Of a stretch of 64,000 nt of DNA, positions 37,633-46,764 are shown in pieces. Source of the DNA: Phycisphaerales bacterium (lineage in GTDB: Bacteria > Planctomycetota > Phycisphaerae > Phycisphaerales > UBA1924); the NCBI GenBank assembly GCA_029260265.1, contig JAJDDO010000024.1:186001-250000 (forward strand), in the 5' to 3' direction. Every line of letters starts with the position of its first letter. Position 1 is the first letter of the stretch. Under the pieces are notes generated by a model, which worked only from the letters and a program-made list of their open reading frames with translations, searched no databases and was not told the origin of the DNA. Made by a program: the position numbers and the translations under genes.

Positions 37633-39196
37633 CGGGGGGCGATCCAAGATATGTCAAACAGTCTCTCGTGCCGCTTCTCAGTGATGCGGCTTCAGTCCCC
37701 TGAAGTGGCGTTGGATGTCAAACTGGGTCGAGATCGGGCGAATTCGCTCATCCTGATGCCCCACCGCGGTGGGCCAGGAGATTGTGGTGGGTCTTGGGAG
37801 TCAATTTGGGTGTCCTTTTTGTCCACCAATTCCACTCCAAAAGATCGTCTAAGCACTTCATGGCACATATCTTACCAGATTCCGGATGTGCATACCCGGA
37901 CATCTGGAGATCTAGAATGAAACAGCATGAACGATCCGTCTGGGATCTCGTCGAATCGGTCTCTATCCTCTTTATGCGCAGCTATCTTGCTGCCCGAGCC
38001 CGGGCATTCGAGCACCCCATGCACGTGGTGCGATTGCTTGCCCAGCGGGATCACGCCCATTCAGATTGTGTGCTCCTGGAACGCGAACTCGCTATCTACC
38101 GCTCCCAGCGCCAACGCAAGCCCGCCAAACACCGCCCCCACTACGCGCCGCAGGAACGGGCCGAGATCCTTCAGTTGATGAGACTACGAGGATGGTCATG
38201 CAAAGAAGCCGCTGCTCGCTTCATAGTCCACCCCAACACAATTCGGAACTGGAAGCGGGCGCTGCGGTACAAACTCAGAGCGGATCAGGTTGTCGGTGCA
38301 CCGCCCTGGAACAAGTTGCACGGAGGCGTGCGATGGCTGGTGCACGAGATGCGTCAGCTGTGCCCCGAGCGAGATTTCGGAACGCGCACCATCGCCAGAT
38401 ACATCATGCGATCCGGAATCCAGATCAGCAGGGCTTCAGTGCGCCGGATCCTCGAAGAAGAGCGATCACCAAATCCATACCACGGAACGCTATCAAACCG
38501 GACGAACAGGACTGCACCCGCACACCTGATTCACCCTCGTAGTCCTCATCATGTGTGGCACCTGGATATCACCTCAATACGAGTGTTGTGGCTGAAGCTC
38601 GAAGTTGCTGCCATTATCGATGGGTGTTGCAGGAAGATTGTCGGGATCAGGGCCTTTGCGAAACGACCGACAACCGCTGACATAGTCAGGCTTATCGATG
38701 ACTCGATCTGCTCGAACACCAAACCGCGGTTCATCATCACCGATCGCGGCTCGCAGTTTCAACGAGCATTTCACTCAGCACTGATCCAGCGAGGGATCAC
38801 ACAAGCCCGATGCCCGGCGCGTGTCTGGCAGTTCAACGCCAAGGTCGAACGGCTGTTCTGGAGTCTAAAAAGATGGTGGCGGGTATCACTCGTCCCGCCC
38901 AACCTGTCAACGATCCAGAAGCGGCTGGAAGACTTTGCTACATGGCACAATCTTTACCGGCCACATGCATCACTTGGTACAATGACGCCGAGTGAAGCGG
39001 AGCTCGGGCTTCGTAAACAAGAGCCAATACGCTATACGGAAGGAGGTGAACTCGAACCCAGGATCACGATCAAGCGACAGCATGTCGGCGATGATCCGCG
39101 ATTACTCTATCCGGTGATCAAGGTGAGGCCGAAACATCACTTTGCGGCGTGATATTCGCCGTATGGGCGGGTATCACAATCTGCTGGCCCCCCGCT
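37633..39196 (+). mobile_element. IS copy A (DDE integrase family)
   Basis: Inner left repeat GCGGTGGGCCAGGAGATTGTGG (37766-) and right end CACAATCTGCTGGCCCCCCGC (to 39195) are inverted; an additional outer CGGGGGGC repeat at 37633 is shared with copy B. Confidence 0.85.
37917..39152 (+). CDS. IS transposase, HTH + integrase core (DDE)
   Basis: MKQHERSVWDLVESV; GWSCKEAAARFIVHPNTIRNWKRAL; WHLDITSIRVLW (D), ITDRGSQFQRAF (D), FNAKVERLFWSLKRWW (E); ORF track start 37782. Confidence 0.9.
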   Translation: MKQHERSVWDLVESVSILFMRSYLAARARAFEHPMHVVRLLAQRDHAHSDCVLLERELAIYRSQRQRKPAKHRPHYAPQERAEILQLMRLRGWSCKEAAARFIVHPNTIRNWKRALRYKLRADQVVGAPPWNKLHGGVRWLVHEMRQLCPERDFGTRTIARYIMRSGIQISRASVRRILEEERSPNPYHGTLSNRTNRTAPAHLIHPRSPHHVWHLDITSIRVLWLKLEVAAIIDGCCRKIVGIRAFAKRPTTADIVRLIDDSICSNTKPRFIITDRGSQFQRAFHSALIQRGITQARCPARVWQFNAKVERLFWSLKRWWRVSLVPPNLSTIQKRLEDFATWHNLYRPHASLGTMTPSEAELGLRKQEPIRYTEGGELEPRITIKRQHVGDDPRLLYPVIKVRPKHHFAA

Positions 39197-40089: not shown

Positions 40090-41651
40090 CGGGGGGCGAT
40101 CCAAGATATGTCAAACAGTCTCTCGTTCCGCTCTGATCAGAGCGGCCTTACTCCCCTATATCGGCGGTGGATGTCAAACTGGGTCGAGATGAGGCAGGAT
40201 CGCCCCTCCCGAGGCCCCACCGCGGTGGGCCAGGAGATTGTGGTGGGTCTTGGGAGTCAGTTTGGGTGTCCTTTTTGTCCACCGATTCCTCCCCGTGTTA
40301 GCGCCTAACTGCCTCATTGCACATATCTTACCAGAATCCGGCTGTGCATACCCGGACATCTGGAGATCTGGAATGAAGCAGCATGAACGGTCCGTCTGGG
40401 ATCTTGTCGAATCGGTCTCCATCCTCTTTATGCGCGGGTACCTCGCCGCCCGAGCGCGGGCTTTCGAGCACCCCATGCCCATGGTGCGACTGCTTACCCA
40501 GCGGGATCACGCCCATTCGGATGCTGTGCTGCTCGAGCGTGAGCTCGCGATCTACCGCTCCCAGCGCCAACGCAAGCCGGCGAAGCAACGCCCCCACTAC
40601 GCACCGCAGGAGCGAGCCGAGATTCTTCAGTTGATGAGACTGCGAGGATGGTCATGCAAAGAAGCCGCAGCCCGTTTCATCGTCCACCCCAATACGGTCC
40701 GCAACTGGAAACGAGCGTTGCGGGACAAACTCAGAGCGGATCAGATTGTCGGTGTACCGCCATGGAACAGACTCCACGGGGGCGTGCGATGGCTGGTGCA
40801 CGAGATGCGTCAGCTGTGCCCCGAGCGAGATTTCGGAACGCGCACCATCGCCAGATACATCATGCGTTCAGGGATCCAGATCAGCAGAGCATCTGTGCGC
40901 AGGATCCTCGAAGAAGATCGATCACCACATCCATTCCACGGAACGCAATCAAACCGGACGAACAGGACTGCACCCGCAGACATGATGCGGCCTCGGAAGC
41001 CCAACCATGTGTGGCACCTGGATATCACCTCGATGCGTGTGTTGTGGCTGAAGCTCGAAGTTGCTGCCATTATCGATGGTTGCAGCAGGAAGATTGTCGG
41101 GATCAGGGCATTCGCCAAACGACCGACGACCGAAGACATGGTCATGCTGATTGAGAGCTCAATTAGAACAAACTCTGTACCACGGTTTATCGTCACGGAT
41201 CGAGGCTCACAGTTTCAGCGAATGTTTCATACCGCCATGATGCAACGAGGGATCACGCATGCACGCGGACCGGCTCGCGTGTGGCAGTTCAACGCCAAGG
41301 TCGAACGGCTCTTCTGGAGCCTGAAGAGATGGTGGCGGGTATCACTCGTACCACCCAACCTCACCTCGATTCAGAAACGACTGGAGGGCTACGCGATCTG
41401 GCACAATCTCTACCGCCCGCACGCATCTCTTGGTATGCTGACACCATGCGAGGCTGAGCTCGGATTGCGTCGGCCGGAACCAATACGCTACACGGAAGGA
41501 GGTGAACTCGAGCCCAAGATCACGATCAGACGATATCATGTCGGTGACGATGCGCGATTACTCTATCCGGTGATCAAGGTGAGGCCGGAGAGATGTTTTG
41601 CGGCGTGATATTCACCATATGGGTTGGTGCCACAGCCTGCTGACCCTCCGC
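40090..41651 (+). mobile_element. IS copy B (DDE integrase family)
   Basis: Left CGGGGGGC / GCGGTGGGCCAGGAGATTGTGG (40222-) and right CACAGCCTGCTGACCCTCCGC (to 41651); 18-bp palindrome CCGCTCTGATCAGAGCGG at 40128-40145. Confidence 0.85.
40373..41608 (+). CDS. IS transposase, HTH + integrase core (DDE)
   Basis: 456-aa ORF from 40238 closely matches copy A; WHLDITSMRVLW, VTDRGSQFQRMF, FNAKVERLFWSLKRWW. Confidence 0.9.
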   Translation: MKQHERSVWDLVESVSILFMRGYLAARARAFEHPMPMVRLLTQRDHAHSDAVLLERELAIYRSQRQRKPAKQRPHYAPQERAEILQLMRLRGWSCKEAAARFIVHPNTVRNWKRALRDKLRADQIVGVPPWNRLHGGVRWLVHEMRQLCPERDFGTRTIARYIMRSGIQISRASVRRILEEDRSPHPFHGTQSNRTNRTAPADMMRPRKPNHVWHLDITSMRVLWLKLEVAAIIDGCSRKIVGIRAFAKRPTTEDMVMLIESSIRTNSVPRFIVTDRGSQFQRMFHTAMMQRGITHARGPARVWQFNAKVERLFWSLKRWWRVSLVPPNLTSIQKRLEGYAIWHNLYRPHASLGMLTPCEAELGLRRPEPIRYTEGGELEPKITIRRYHVGDDARLLYPVIKVRPERCFAA

Positions 41652-42393: not shown

Positions 42394-43299
42394 GTGGCGA
42401 TCATGCTCCACTTTCTGTCTGGGTGCATTTTGACATGTTGCAAGATTGGAGAGACCGTGAACTGGATTTCGATGATCGGTGATTCCGTATTTGGAGTACT
42501 AACAAGGATCTCTGTGCTAGGTGTGCATGGATACCGGCTGTGGATTTCACCAAAACGACGCAAGCGTTGCGCAAGCGGGGTGCTACACGGGTGGGAACAT
42601 TCGTGTAGTACGGTCACACTTGAAGCGCTGCGAGAGGATGGCTTGCGTGGAGCTGCGCCGAAGGTGCGGGCGCAGTTCGCAAAGTGTGCATTGGCGGCGG
42701 AGACAATCGATTCGAAGGATGGCGATGCCAATGCGACTGTGCCGCTTGCAGCGGGGGAAGAAGAAGCATGCTGCGAACTCGATCTGCATGCGGAAACAGC
42801 TCGGAAGATGATTATCGAATTGTTCACAGTTTGGTGTGTAGGCAAGTACCTGATGGCCGGAGCTTTTCATGCGGGGATGCTGGAGGGCTGGATTGAAGGC
42901 TTTTTATACAACCTGCTTGGACCGATGTTCATGGGATCTGCAGCATCAATGCTCTGGCCACTAGTGGTCCTCTCCTTAGTGATGGATTCGTTTGCCGTTT
43001 ACGCCTTGTACAAGCGTGAGGATGCCGCCCCATACCTAGTAGGGAGTTTCGGCTTGTCAGCGTTCGTGATGTTCTTTGACCCGTTCCTTGCGAGCATGGT
43101 GAACCTGGACTGGTTCGGCTCGGCGTGGAATTTGAATGAAATGACAGGGGAAATCGCAGATGCAGGCGCCGGAAAAATCTGGCACAAGGGATTGTTTGGG
43201 ATAATCTGGCCGAAGAAGTTGGCTGTGCTCATAGTCTGGGGGGCGTCATTATTCATGCTCTTGGCTGTCAGCGAGCTCTCGAGATCGTGCGATGACTGA
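42394..43299 (+). CDS. YidD-like domain fused to C-terminal multi-TM region
   Basis: LGVHGYRLWISPKRRKRCASGVLHGWEHSCSTVTLEALREDGLRGAAPKVRAQFAKC resembles YidD (YQxxISPxxxxxCRxxPSCSxYxxEAxxxxGxxxG); then several hydrophobic helices. GTG start in ORF track; true start uncertain. Confidence 0.65.
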   Translation: MAIMLHFLSGCILTCCKIGETVNWISMIGDSVFGVLTRISVLGVHGYRLWISPKRRKRCASGVLHGWEHSCSTVTLEALREDGLRGAAPKVRAQFAKCALAAETIDSKDGDANATVPLAAGEEEACCELDLHAETARKMIIELFTVWCVGKYLMAGAFHAGMLEGWIEGFLYNLLGPMFMGSAASMLWPLVVLSLVMDSFAVYALYKREDAAPYLVGSFGLSAFVMFFDPFLASMVNLDWFGSAWNLNEMTGEIADAGAGKIWHKGLFGIIWPKKLAVLIVWGASLFMLLAVSELSRSCDD

Positions 43300-44977
43300 A
43301 CCTAGCGCGCTGCCGACTCGAGAAGCGGTCCGTAAACTGTCAATTTCCACAGTTGAATCATTCAATCAGTGGCGTTCGGACGCAGAGTCACTGGATCGTG
43401 GTAGGCGAATTGTACTTGATGAAGTCCGATCGATCGCGCGATTCTATGAGCGCCGACAATTCCATAATGCATTCGAGACACTAGTCAAGCCCGGGGGATG
43501 GTCAGGGTATCTGGCATCCGTTTTCCTGTCGTACCGACAGCGGGACGCCATGCTCGGATACTTGAGATTTCAAGAGTGCGCCGGCGAGTTTGAAGGGGAG
43601 CATGATCCATTAGAAAAAGTCAATCAGCTACTAAACACGGACCTTCGGCGGTTAGGGACTCGATCTCTTTCTCTCTTCGGGGTAATGGTGGATACGGGCG
43701 AGGGACGGCGACGGCGAGTTCGACTGCCCATTGACCCATTCGCATGCCATCGGCGGGTGTACACAAGAATTCTCCGGGCAAGACGAACCGGTATTGGGCA
43801 GCGGGCCCGGGTGTTGAACTTTGTCGATCGACATCGGGCGCGATGTGAGCTTGCCCTTTTGAAGTTGGCCTGTCGAGTAATGGTTCGGATGAACTGGATA
43901 CCACTCAAGGGCGAGACCATCGTGGCGGAGCTCGGCGAGGTATTCGGGTGTGCGGAATGGGGTGAAAATGAGAAGCGAAAGTTTAAACACGAAATGGAGA
44001 TGTTCATAGAAGGGGATGCATGGGAGATTCTAGAACATACATCCGAGGACGCATGGTTAAACGGAGGAGCTGGCAAGTTCGTGAAGCTGGCGATCGGGAC
44101 AATGCTGGGTTGCGTAGAAACGAATCAGGCTCGCGGAGATGCGGATGTGGATTCGGTAATCCGAGCTATGAAGACTGTTTTCTACTGGGCTTTGACATAC
44201 CCCCTGGTGGATGATGTGCTTGACCAAGGCGAATCTTCGTTGGCGGATCGGCAATCGCTAGCCCGTACAATGCGTGAGGCACTTTCAGCTGGCGGAGAAG
44301 AGGATGAGCCAACAAACGATGTTCCCCCAATCGCGATAGCCATGCGTCGCCTGCTATCGATCCCCGGGATAAATCGAAAGCGCGTATCAACAGCGATTCT
44401 CGCAGTACTCGAAGCCCATGTGGACGGGGCGACGCCGCGGCTTGAATCGGTAATTGAGGAAGGGGATCTGTATGTATGGCTATCGCTGGAGAAATCGCTA
44501 TTGGTGCGAGTGGCTACATCAGAGATCAGCGGGATCCCGGTGCCATGGAAGGATTACCAAGAGATGGCAGGGGTAGCATACTTCAATCAGTTGGGGGATG
44601 ATCTGTGGGATGCAGAGGAGGATCTTCGAGACGGAGCAATCACGCCAGTGACTATGTGGGCTCGTGGACTTCGCCGAGAAAACCCATCACGAATGTATGT
44701 AGATTTCGGAGCATGGCTTTCCGATGAAGCAGGAAACGAGCAGACTACGAGGGGGATCGCACTGGCGATCGTGCACACATTCAGTTTATCTCGCGGGGCA
44801 GGACCATTGACAGATTCGATGCTGGAGATGGAGCTGGAGGGGGCGTTCCCAGCGTCGTTGATGGACGCGGTACCACACATCGATCCGGATTCGATGCTGT
44901 TCGAGTTCGAGCGATTAGCGGTGCGAGAGTACAAGCGATGGGGTACTCGTAAGCGATCGACCGTAGGGCGGGTATAG
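43292..44977 (+). CDS. Class I isoprenoid-synthase-like protein (polyprenyl synthetase fold, putative)
   Basis: Two Asp-rich motifs at expected order: YPLVDDVLDQ (DDxxD) and FNQLGDDLWDAEEDLRDG (second Asp-rich motif); 8-nt overlap with upstream ORF. Confidence 0.65.
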   Translation: MTEPSALPTREAVRKLSISTVESFNQWRSDAESLDRGRRIVLDEVRSIARFYERRQFHNAFETLVKPGGWSGYLASVFLSYRQRDAMLGYLRFQECAGEFEGEHDPLEKVNQLLNTDLRRLGTRSLSLFGVMVDTGEGRRRRVRLPIDPFACHRRVYTRILRARRTGIGQRARVLNFVDRHRARCELALLKLACRVMVRMNWIPLKGETIVAELGEVFGCAEWGENEKRKFKHEMEMFIEGDAWEILEHTSEDAWLNGGAGKFVKLAIGTMLGCVETNQARGDADVDSVIRAMKTVFYWALTYPLVDDVLDQGESSLADRQSLARTMREALSAGGEEDEPTNDVPPIAIAMRRLLSIPGINRKRVSTAILAVLEAHVDGATPRLESVIEEGDLYVWLSLEKSLLVRVATSEISGIPVPWKDYQEMAGVAYFNQLGDDLWDAEEDLRDGAITPVTMWARGLRRENPSRMYVDFGAWLSDEAGNEQTTRGIALAIVHTFSLSRGAGPLTDSMLEMELEGAFPASLMDAVPHIDPDSMLFEFERLAVREYKRWGTRKRSTVGRV

Positions 44978-45147: not shown

Positions 45148-46764
45148 TTACCAACGACGCCGATCGATTATTGCACGTGAATGAAAGCGAACTGAAATCA
45201 GTGATACCGGAGCTGCTGCGACACGCTCAACCTCTTCGATGAATTGGAGACTATCTTTTGTTAACTGCTCAACTCGATTTGCCTTCCGATTCTCTATGGA
45301 TAGATAATCAGCAAATGTCAATGCGATGTCAGTTGGTGCATTGAGCGACGCCGACATACGCAATTGTGCCCAATCAAACTCCCCAACACGCCGCTTCCGC
45401 TTAGTCGTAGATGTCTTTTCAACTTTTTGAAGCTCACTAATCGGTACTCCGGACCGATCAGCGACATCTACCCAATTAATCTCTCGCGACATGGGTCCTG
45501 ATGTGCTGCCCTTGGGGCTCTCCACCCGTATGGGATACGTCCTGCAAACCATCAACACTTTTCGAACCCTGCTCGGCGAAATCCCCGCGTCAGCGAGGCA
45601 CCCTGCAACTGTCGTATCTCTCGAAGTGACGTAGGGGTACTCACCATGATACAGGCTCAAACTCGTACCTTGGGTCCCCTCTAGCATGACTGCCCGATTA
45701 TTGCCGAACGCATCATCAAGAACTTCACATGCCGGTCGCACGAACGGCTTGAGTTCCTTGATGTTTGCCGCAATCGTGAGCCTATTGATCGCCTTATCAC
45801 GATCTAAGATTCTACGAGCTGTGGCCGCACCTACCCCTTGGCCCGTAGAGCCCATTGCATCTGTAAATCTTGACTCACTCGCGATGTCATCATCACTGAT
45901 TACCATCGCGTGTGGATCGATCGTTAATCGATCATAATCTACATTACAATCTGCGATCTCCTTCATCAGTGATTCAACGCGAATAACCGCCCCTGCACCA
46001 AGCACGAGCATTGCGTTCGGATTCCGTCGAGTGCCGCTGGGTAAGTGGTGGAAAGTGTATGGATCCGGATGTTCCCAGACAGTGTGCCCTGCGTTCGGGC
46101 CGCCTACACGAACAAGGAGATCGTATTCTGAGGAAAGATGCGCCGCGACCTGCCCCTTCCCTTCGCTTCCATACTGACCTCCAACTATCACATCGACCGT
46201 GCGAGAATACGTTCTTCCGAATACACCAATATGACTCGCTGCACGTAGTAGAACATCATCTTCTGTGCAACGTTCGGTTGAAATTACCACATCCGCAAGC
46301 TGGCCAAGCTCCGCGACCTGCCGTTCAGTCTTGTTCTCCAGCAACTTTGAATAGTCATCAAGCTCTTTGATACTCGCGTCACGATCCTTATACCGCTTAG
46401 ACAGTTCGGATTCAGGTGCCTCCAGATGGATGTGGATAACACCGTTCCCATACCCCTCGCGTATTGCCTCAATTTGCCCTTGAATCCGAACGGCGTCAAG
46501 CACCACAAGCTTTTCACCATCGGCATTGAGTTCATCCAATCTTTTTCCAAGCGCATCCCGTACCCATGCCCCCTTGGTCTTTCGATCAAGCTTCTCGCCG
46601 GCGGCCTGCAATGCAACCCGTTCTAAGGGGATTGTGCTGTCCAGAGCACTCAAACATTCGCGTGTCTTAATGTGAAACGCCCCATACTGCTTTGAGAGCA
46701 TCACCGCTAAGGTGGTTTTACCTGTACATACCTGACCAGATAACAAGACAATTCTTCGACGCAC
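45148..46764 (-). CDS. P-loop nucleotide-kinase-like domain fused to PurA/PurZ-like adenylosuccinate synthetase
   Basis: N-term RRIVLLSGQVCTGKTTLAVMLSKQYGAFHIKTRE (Walker A); C-term VIVGGQYGSEGKGQVAAHL, VGGPNAGHTVWEH, MGSTGQGVGAATARRI, MLEGTQGTSLSLYHGEYPYVTSRDTTVAG (adenylosuccinate synthetase family). Confidence 0.88.
   Translation of the reverse strand: MRRRIVLLSGQVCTGKTTLAVMLSKQYGAFHIKTRECLSALDSTIPLERVALQAAGEKLDRKTKGAWVRDALGKRLDELNADGEKLVVLDAVRIQGQIEAIREGYGNGVIHIHLEAPESELSKRYKDRDASIKELDDYSKLLENKTERQVAELGQLADVVISTERCTEDDVLLRAASHIGVFGRTYSRTVDVIVGGQYGSEGKGQVAAHLSSEYDLLVRVGGPNAGHTVWEHPDPYTFHHLPSGTRRNPNAMLVLGAGAVIRVESLMKEIADCNVDYDRLTIDPHAMVISDDDIASESRFTDAMGSTGQGVGAATARRILDRDKAINRLTIAANIKELKPFVRPACEVLDDAFGNNRAVMLEGTQGTSLSLYHGEYPYVTSRDTTVAGCLADAGISPSRVRKVLMVCRTYPIRVESPKGSTSGPMSREINWVDVADRSGVPISELQKVEKTSTTKRKRRVGEFDWAQLRMSASLNAPTDIALTFADYLSIENRKANRVEQLTKDSLQFIEEVERVAAAPVSLISVRFHSRAIIDRRRW

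Follow-up and report, generated by a model that had tools for sequence, protein, structure and literature searches.

A kinase-fused PurZ-type synthetase in a conserved three-gene module with predicted ADP-ribosylation partners

Introduction

The window analysed here, a stretch of 64,000 nucleotides from a Phycisphaerales bacterium, encodes a homologue of adenylosuccinate synthetase with a serine in place of the catalytic aspartate of PurA. Synthesis of 2-aminoadenine is a means by which phages evade host nucleases and, in the literature searched, synthesis of its deoxynucleotides has been described solely for the modification of phage genomes. A first-pass annotation had likened the homologue to the phage enzyme PurZ and suggested a (d)GMP-like substrate. 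Is this a cellular PurZ and, if so, what might a cell use it for?

Results

The gene, here termed K, is an open frame with a GTG start on the reverse strand (45148 to 46764) and encodes a kinase-PurZ fusion protein of 538 amino acids. The interval first assigned to the enzyme, 45148 to 46200, does hold the synthetase domain, but the frame opens about 190 codons further upstream, and this added part encodes a P-loop kinase domain, which the first-pass annotation overlooked together with the operon and the breadth of the family. The N-terminal domain (approximately residues 1 to 180; 46225 to 46764, reverse strand) is an adenylate-kinase-like P-loop NMP kinase according to Pfam (AAA_18), an AlphaFold2 model and Foldseek. 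The C-terminal domain (residues 189 to 538; 45151 to 46200, reverse strand) is placed among the PurZ-type (2-amino)adenylosuccinate synthetases by PHROG 1211, NF038379 and a phylogenetic tree. A canonical PurA is encoded separately in the same genome (G000:C17:1105545-1106843; 555 bits to PF00709), in agreement with the earlier remark that K has no purine-biosynthesis context, and is also present in 12 other genomes bearing the fusion.

The synthetase domain matches PF00709 (E = 6.8e-56) and, with an E value of 2.5e-71, PHROG 1211, annotated as '2-aminooxy adenylosuccinate synthetase'. K reaches none of the NCBIfam equivalog cut-offs for the three relevant models, scoring 273 bits against short archaeal PurA (368 needed), 213 against PurZ (NF038379; cut-off 300) and 208 against PurA (396 needed). 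The replacement of Asp by Ser in the GDEGKG motif, as first noted, is borne out by the open frame: Ser200 (codon 46165 to 46167, reverse strand) lies within GGQYGSEGKGQ (residues 195 to 205; 46150 to 46182), and all 92 kinase-fused homologues have Ser at this position. This invariance is not an artefact of the scan pattern, because several loci lack the pattern's Gln and were caught via VGGPNAGH alone, and because plain tblastn recovered nine full-length homologues on plasmids, all of them with Ser. The second proposed signature, GPNAGHT, is present (residues 222 to 228; 46081 to 46101) but is not diagnostic, since the Asp-type PurA of one archaeal genome (L192) has GGPNAGHT too; we therefore discarded it as a mark of PurZ. 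The remaining catalytic residues, on whose retention the first-pass reading depended, are kept: Lys203, Asn224, His227, Thr307, Gln365, Arg458 and Asp486 are invariant (92/92) and Arg317 is found in 87 of the 92, at positions taken to correspond to the catalytic residues of the E. coli enzyme. The first-pass statement that phage PurZ departs from PurA at the aspartate also held: a published survey reports that all 147 phage PurZ sequences (100%) have Ser there, and that 99% of the PurA group have Asp (PMC12884076).

Phylogeny, the check proposed at the outset, places K outside PurA; with the mapped catalytic residues kept as well, neither of the refuting outcomes named in the first-pass annotation came about. 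In a maximum-likelihood tree of 65 rows (IQ-TREE), the kinase-fused family forms a single clade (100/99) inside a Ser-type clade that also contains phiVC8-type PurZ, the PurZ0-type phage enzymes and enzymes from viral contigs; Asp-type PurA, short archaeal PurA and a plasmid enzyme from a deazapurine cluster fall outside (split 100/100). The family sits between PurZ and PurZ0 with support of 87/85. We initially took this nesting as proof of dGMP use and have withdrawn that argument: in AU tests, trees that group the phage and viral enzymes without the fused family were not rejected (p = 0.119 and 0.345), so the family may instead branch as the sister group of these enzymes as a whole, and the case for dGMP is strong rather than bracketed. 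The family also has the PurZ-only PIRV motif in the alignment, and it shares a GTSG/GNSG loop insertion with all seven named phage enzymes aligned, which is absent in PurA. In PurZ of phage S-2L, a valine is brought close to the sugar's C2' by this loop insertion (PMC8342488). The tree and these sequence features make it fairly firm that the synthetase domain belongs on the PurZ side rather than within PurA, and dGMP is probably its substrate, being the likeliest candidate.

The kinase domain has the motifs G10-x4-GKT and D90-x2-R93-x3-Q97, and its profile search gave an E value of 1e-11. Its AlphaFold2 model (pLDDT 94.4) found as best Foldseek match SSO1041 (3lw7; 8.8e-8), an adenylate-kinase-related protein whose structure was solved with AMP, and then human AK1 (2.4e-7). 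The Arg-x3-Gln of adenylate kinase holds AMP, with the Gln contacting the adenine; the D90-x2-R93-x3-Q97 motif aligns to Arg97 and Gln101 of human AK1, and Gln97 is invariant in the 92 fused homologues. An AK1-like Arg-x3-Gln suggests an adenine-like NMP substrate, such as the product of PurZ and PurB, and whether the domain phosphorylates that product seems to us evenly balanced. It could alternatively act upstream, from nucleoside to dGMP, or serve as a sensor. A divergent fusion on a viral contig (L176:5283-6767, forward strand) lies amid a phage-like replication cluster, with replication genes on one side and a family A DNA polymerase on the other, the polymerase and helicase being assigned by reading of the sequence rather than by profile search. 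This position beside a polymerase supports a joint nucleotide pathway, and L176 is possibly a Z-genome phage with a built-in kinase.

Ten base pairs upstream of K, in the order usual for the family, lies a gene (M; 46775 to 48094, reverse strand) for a 439-aa protein that combines an ImmA/IrrE (M78) metallopeptidase (PF06114, 1.1e-9) with a macrodomain. The protease part matches the PADLOC capP profile (3.5e-22) and has a conserved HExxH at residues 98 to 102. The macrodomain (residues 286 to 439; 46778 to 47239, reverse strand) is of the BT1257/SCO6735 subclass (2fg1/2afc, about 1.5e-30) and, with a match to 5e3b at 2.4e-23, belongs to the ALC1-like class that includes DarG. SCO6735 strips DarT-made ADP-ribose from DNA and requires Gln85, where DarG and TARG1 have a lysine (PMC9411070). 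Q367 is conserved in M and is presumably the counterpart of this catalytic Gln85.

The third gene, D (48155 to 48775, forward strand), encodes a 206-aa DUF7002 protein (PF22531, 2.1e-25) and in the window is divergent from M, 60 bp away, instead of following K. An AlphaFold2 model, computed from an alignment from which plasmid rows were left out, has a pLDDT of 93.4. Its first seven PDB matches in Foldseek are DarT structures, although the similarity is weak, the best being DarT1 (8baq; E = 3.7e-3, probability 0.92, TM 0.38); after these comes KptA, whose fold likewise serves ADP-ribosyl transfer. The best sequence match to the D profile is likewise DarT1 (E = 0.074); the DarT profiles of PADLOC and NCBIfam did not match D. 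Eleven positions are invariant in the family, including His17, Arg53, Arg69, Asn149 and Glu183, and the window protein keeps all of them, even though it is a divergent member (20 to 41% identity). From the modelled fold, D is quite likely a DarT-like ADP-ribosyltransferase. DUF7002 is also found in the absence of K, and D is therefore not exclusive to the module. One K-less genome from the same family has a DUF7002 gene (L240:5741-6508) that adjoins a frame of 1590 aa.

Among 85,488 species genomes scanned there were 430 relatives, of which we retained the best 80, at 79 loci. These 79 loci (74 bacterial and 5 archaeal, in 16 phyla) encode nearly exclusively full-length kinase-PurZ fusions, and together with 9 plasmids they supply the full-length homologues of K. 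Viral contigs searched with K alone as the query yielded no relative; an alignment-based query recovered relatives. Neighbours were counted at 96 loci, which are those from the genomes, that of the window and the copies from plasmids and viral sequences. D is present in at least 83 of the 96 (82 by clustering, plus L016 by Pfam) and M in 67, and exactly M, K and D occur together in 62, mostly in the order M-K-D. Gaps in M-K-D or D-K arrangements are a few bases, or the genes overlap by 4 to 7 bp, K and D often doing so; large overlaps between frames reflect start choice, because starts were assigned mechanically. The kinase-PurZ fusion, the predicted DarT-like protein and the macrodomain-protease are thus a conserved three-gene module, usually an operon.

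At 12 Hyphomicrobiales loci, chromosomal or on plasmids, a YfbR-like HD protein and a protein of about 470 aa take the place of M, so that not every locus has a macrodomain brake; an M-related peptidase is nevertheless encoded close by at one of the 12. This YfbR-group HD protein shows no more than weak similarity to phage DatZ, and we rejected an identification with it. The 470-aa protein has no Pfam match and no solved structural relative, and an impression from reading that it resembles PEP synthase was not borne out. Proteins like dCTP deaminase or dUTPase are found near some copies of K. A family of about 258 aa (MQNRYVGDIGDFGKYGLLR...), without a PADLOC match, lies near the fusion at L050:4366-5142 and eight other loci, five of the nine being from Chloroflexota and four archaeal. 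On a Sinorhizobium medicae plasmid (L025:5317-9958), a Ser-type synthetase without a kinase has three neighbours, resembling YfbR (an HD protein), dCTP deaminase and ThiF; this may be another system of the Ser type. A Rhizobium leguminosarum plasmid (L026:5372-12935) has a cluster resembling 7-deazapurine biosynthesis, with FolE, an Asp-type short synthetase, PurB, QueE, IMPDH, nitrile hydratase, QueC and a phosphoribosyltransferase.

In the window, beyond D, the reverse strand encodes a YgjP-like metallopeptidase (48929 to 49666; PF01863, 8.6e-53) and a type I restriction HsdR of which the frame covers the C-terminal part alone (49663 to 51345; PADLOC REase_I, 3.4e-63, profile positions 588 to 1020 of 1099), a setting of the defence-island kind. 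End repeats of insertion sequences have short matches at 51150 to 51194 and 51502 to 51562, and three related transposase copies flank the region (37782 to 39152, 40238 to 41608 and 53632 to 54444, the third truncated at its 5' end). Two long frames of 561 and 544 aa (43292 to 44977 and 51662 to 53296) have no Pfam match. The G+C content of the region is 0.50 to 0.53, against 0.55 to 0.61 to its left. HsdR-like genes are found near 9 of the 79 genome loci (1.32 Mb), and 8 PF22679 matches in 57.2 Mb from 12 host genomes served as background, which gives an enrichment of about 49-fold that is rough, since the two counts come from different detectors. GajA/GajB, HsdM and HsdS are also nearby at several loci. 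We found no description of the module in PADLOC 2023 or in the literature searched, outside which most subscription papers lie.

Discussion

The module has the look of a defence system not yet described, rather than of a part of purine biosynthesis, and a role against phages seems to us rather likely. As a cellular PurZ, K would join (d)GMP, most likely dGMP, to L-aspartate at the expense of an NTP, yielding N6-succino-2-amino-(d)AMP, which host PurB would convert to the 2-aminoadenine nucleotide. The kinase domain would then most likely convert dZMP to dZDP; a kinase acting on dZMP would mean that K alone supplies two steps around PurB. D would transfer ADP-ribose from NAD+ onto a nucleic acid or nucleotide, and M, with its protease and a macrodomain of the ADP-ribosyl-hydrolase type, may act as brake or sensor. 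A base-modified deoxynucleotide made during infection might license or feed D, and the whole module would be mobile. That M-K-D is a conflict module coupling synthesis of such a nucleotide to NAD-dependent ADP-ribosylation is our preferred reading, at about even odds. It is possible, if somewhat doubtful, that the modified nucleotide signals to D or serves as its substrate; the fuller proposal, in which cells make 2-aminoadenine deoxynucleotides for this purpose and M senses or erases the ADP-ribosylated product, is more tentative still. Both the immune role and the order of action within the module are inferred.

Two other explanations are both unlikely in our view. The module may starve phages, with K draining dGMP and dGTP, D draining NAD+ and the modified nucleotide a by-product. 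Anti-phage dGTPase and dCTP deaminase offer parallels, the kinase domain is weakly similar to the P-loop region of the latter (NF041025, E = 0.002), YfbR-like 5'-deoxynucleotidases substitute for M at the 12 variant loci, and dCTP deaminase/dUTPase-like genes lie close to some copies of K; yet a kinase-PurZ fusion fits nucleotide production better than the draining of a pool, each turnover spends aspartate and an NTP, and the D/M pair is left without an obvious part. Alternatively, D and M or its substitutes may be a toxin-antitoxin pair, for which the DarT-like D, the DarG-class macrodomain and the frequent overlaps of 4 to 7 bp between K and D would speak, and K merely a regulator sensing a deoxynucleotide with both domains. 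The strictly conserved catalytic residues of both domains suggest turnover instead, and K-D is retained where M is absent. It is very improbable that K is an accessory purine enzyme acting on (ribo)GMP or IMP, or part of a nucleoside-antibiotic pathway: the short archaeal PurA profile does score highest, and 7-deazapurine-like clusters such as L026 house some of the short synthetases of Asp type, but the Ser-type clade stands apart from PurA, K has the PurZ-specific sugar loop, a canonical PurA is present in this and 12 other K-bearing genomes, and K has conserved, predicted partners in ADP-ribosylation and a location in defence islands.

If synthesis of a modified nucleotide by K is accepted, cells too would make a 2-aminoadenine nucleotide, probably for defence, and a cellular PurZ could bear on the origin of the phage enzyme. 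M-K-D would be a testable three-gene system occurring in 16 phyla, and DUF7002 would gain a likely fold and activity from the model.

Among known systems, K resembles the phage PurZ and PurZ0 enzymes (phiVC8, S-2L, Arthrobacter and Gordonia phages) in its Ser, PIRV motif and sugar-loop insertion, in lacking the PurA-specific insert and in its side of the tree (100/100); it differs from them in being cellular, fused to a kinase and under the NCBIfam cut-off for PurZ. No DatZ, MazZ or DpoZ-type partner lies beside K, the conserved neighbours at the 96 loci being M and D. With bacterial PurA and short archaeal PurA (5k7x), K shares the fold and the other catalytic residues, whereas the Ser in place of Asp13, the sugar loop, the tree position and the separate PurA in the genome set it apart. 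DarTG (DarTG1 for guanine, DarTG2 for thymine) has in common with the module the ALC1-like macrodomain of M and possibly, from the weak match of the model, the fold of D; in contrast to DarTG, D is too remote for DarT profiles, the macrodomain is fused to an ImmA/IrrE protease, there is a third gene, K, and a variant locus lacks M. The anti-phage dCTP deaminase consists of a P-loop domain and a nucleotide-modifying domain, an architecture that K shares, though its catalytic domain is a different one and its P-loop is only weakly similar. In Kongming, dITP is produced by a deaminase, and KomA, KomB and KomC are deaminase, HAM1-like and SIR2-like proteins, none of which occurs among the conserved neighbours of K. 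Kongming thus differs in its non-synthetase producer, in using a phage kinase where that of K is fused, and in its NAD+-using effector, with no homology shown. Kongming uses dITP as an immune signal and depletes NAD+ (PMC12948488), and the proposed M-K-D system would, in the same way, pair a base-modified purine deoxynucleotide from a nucleotide enzyme with an NAD+-using partner.
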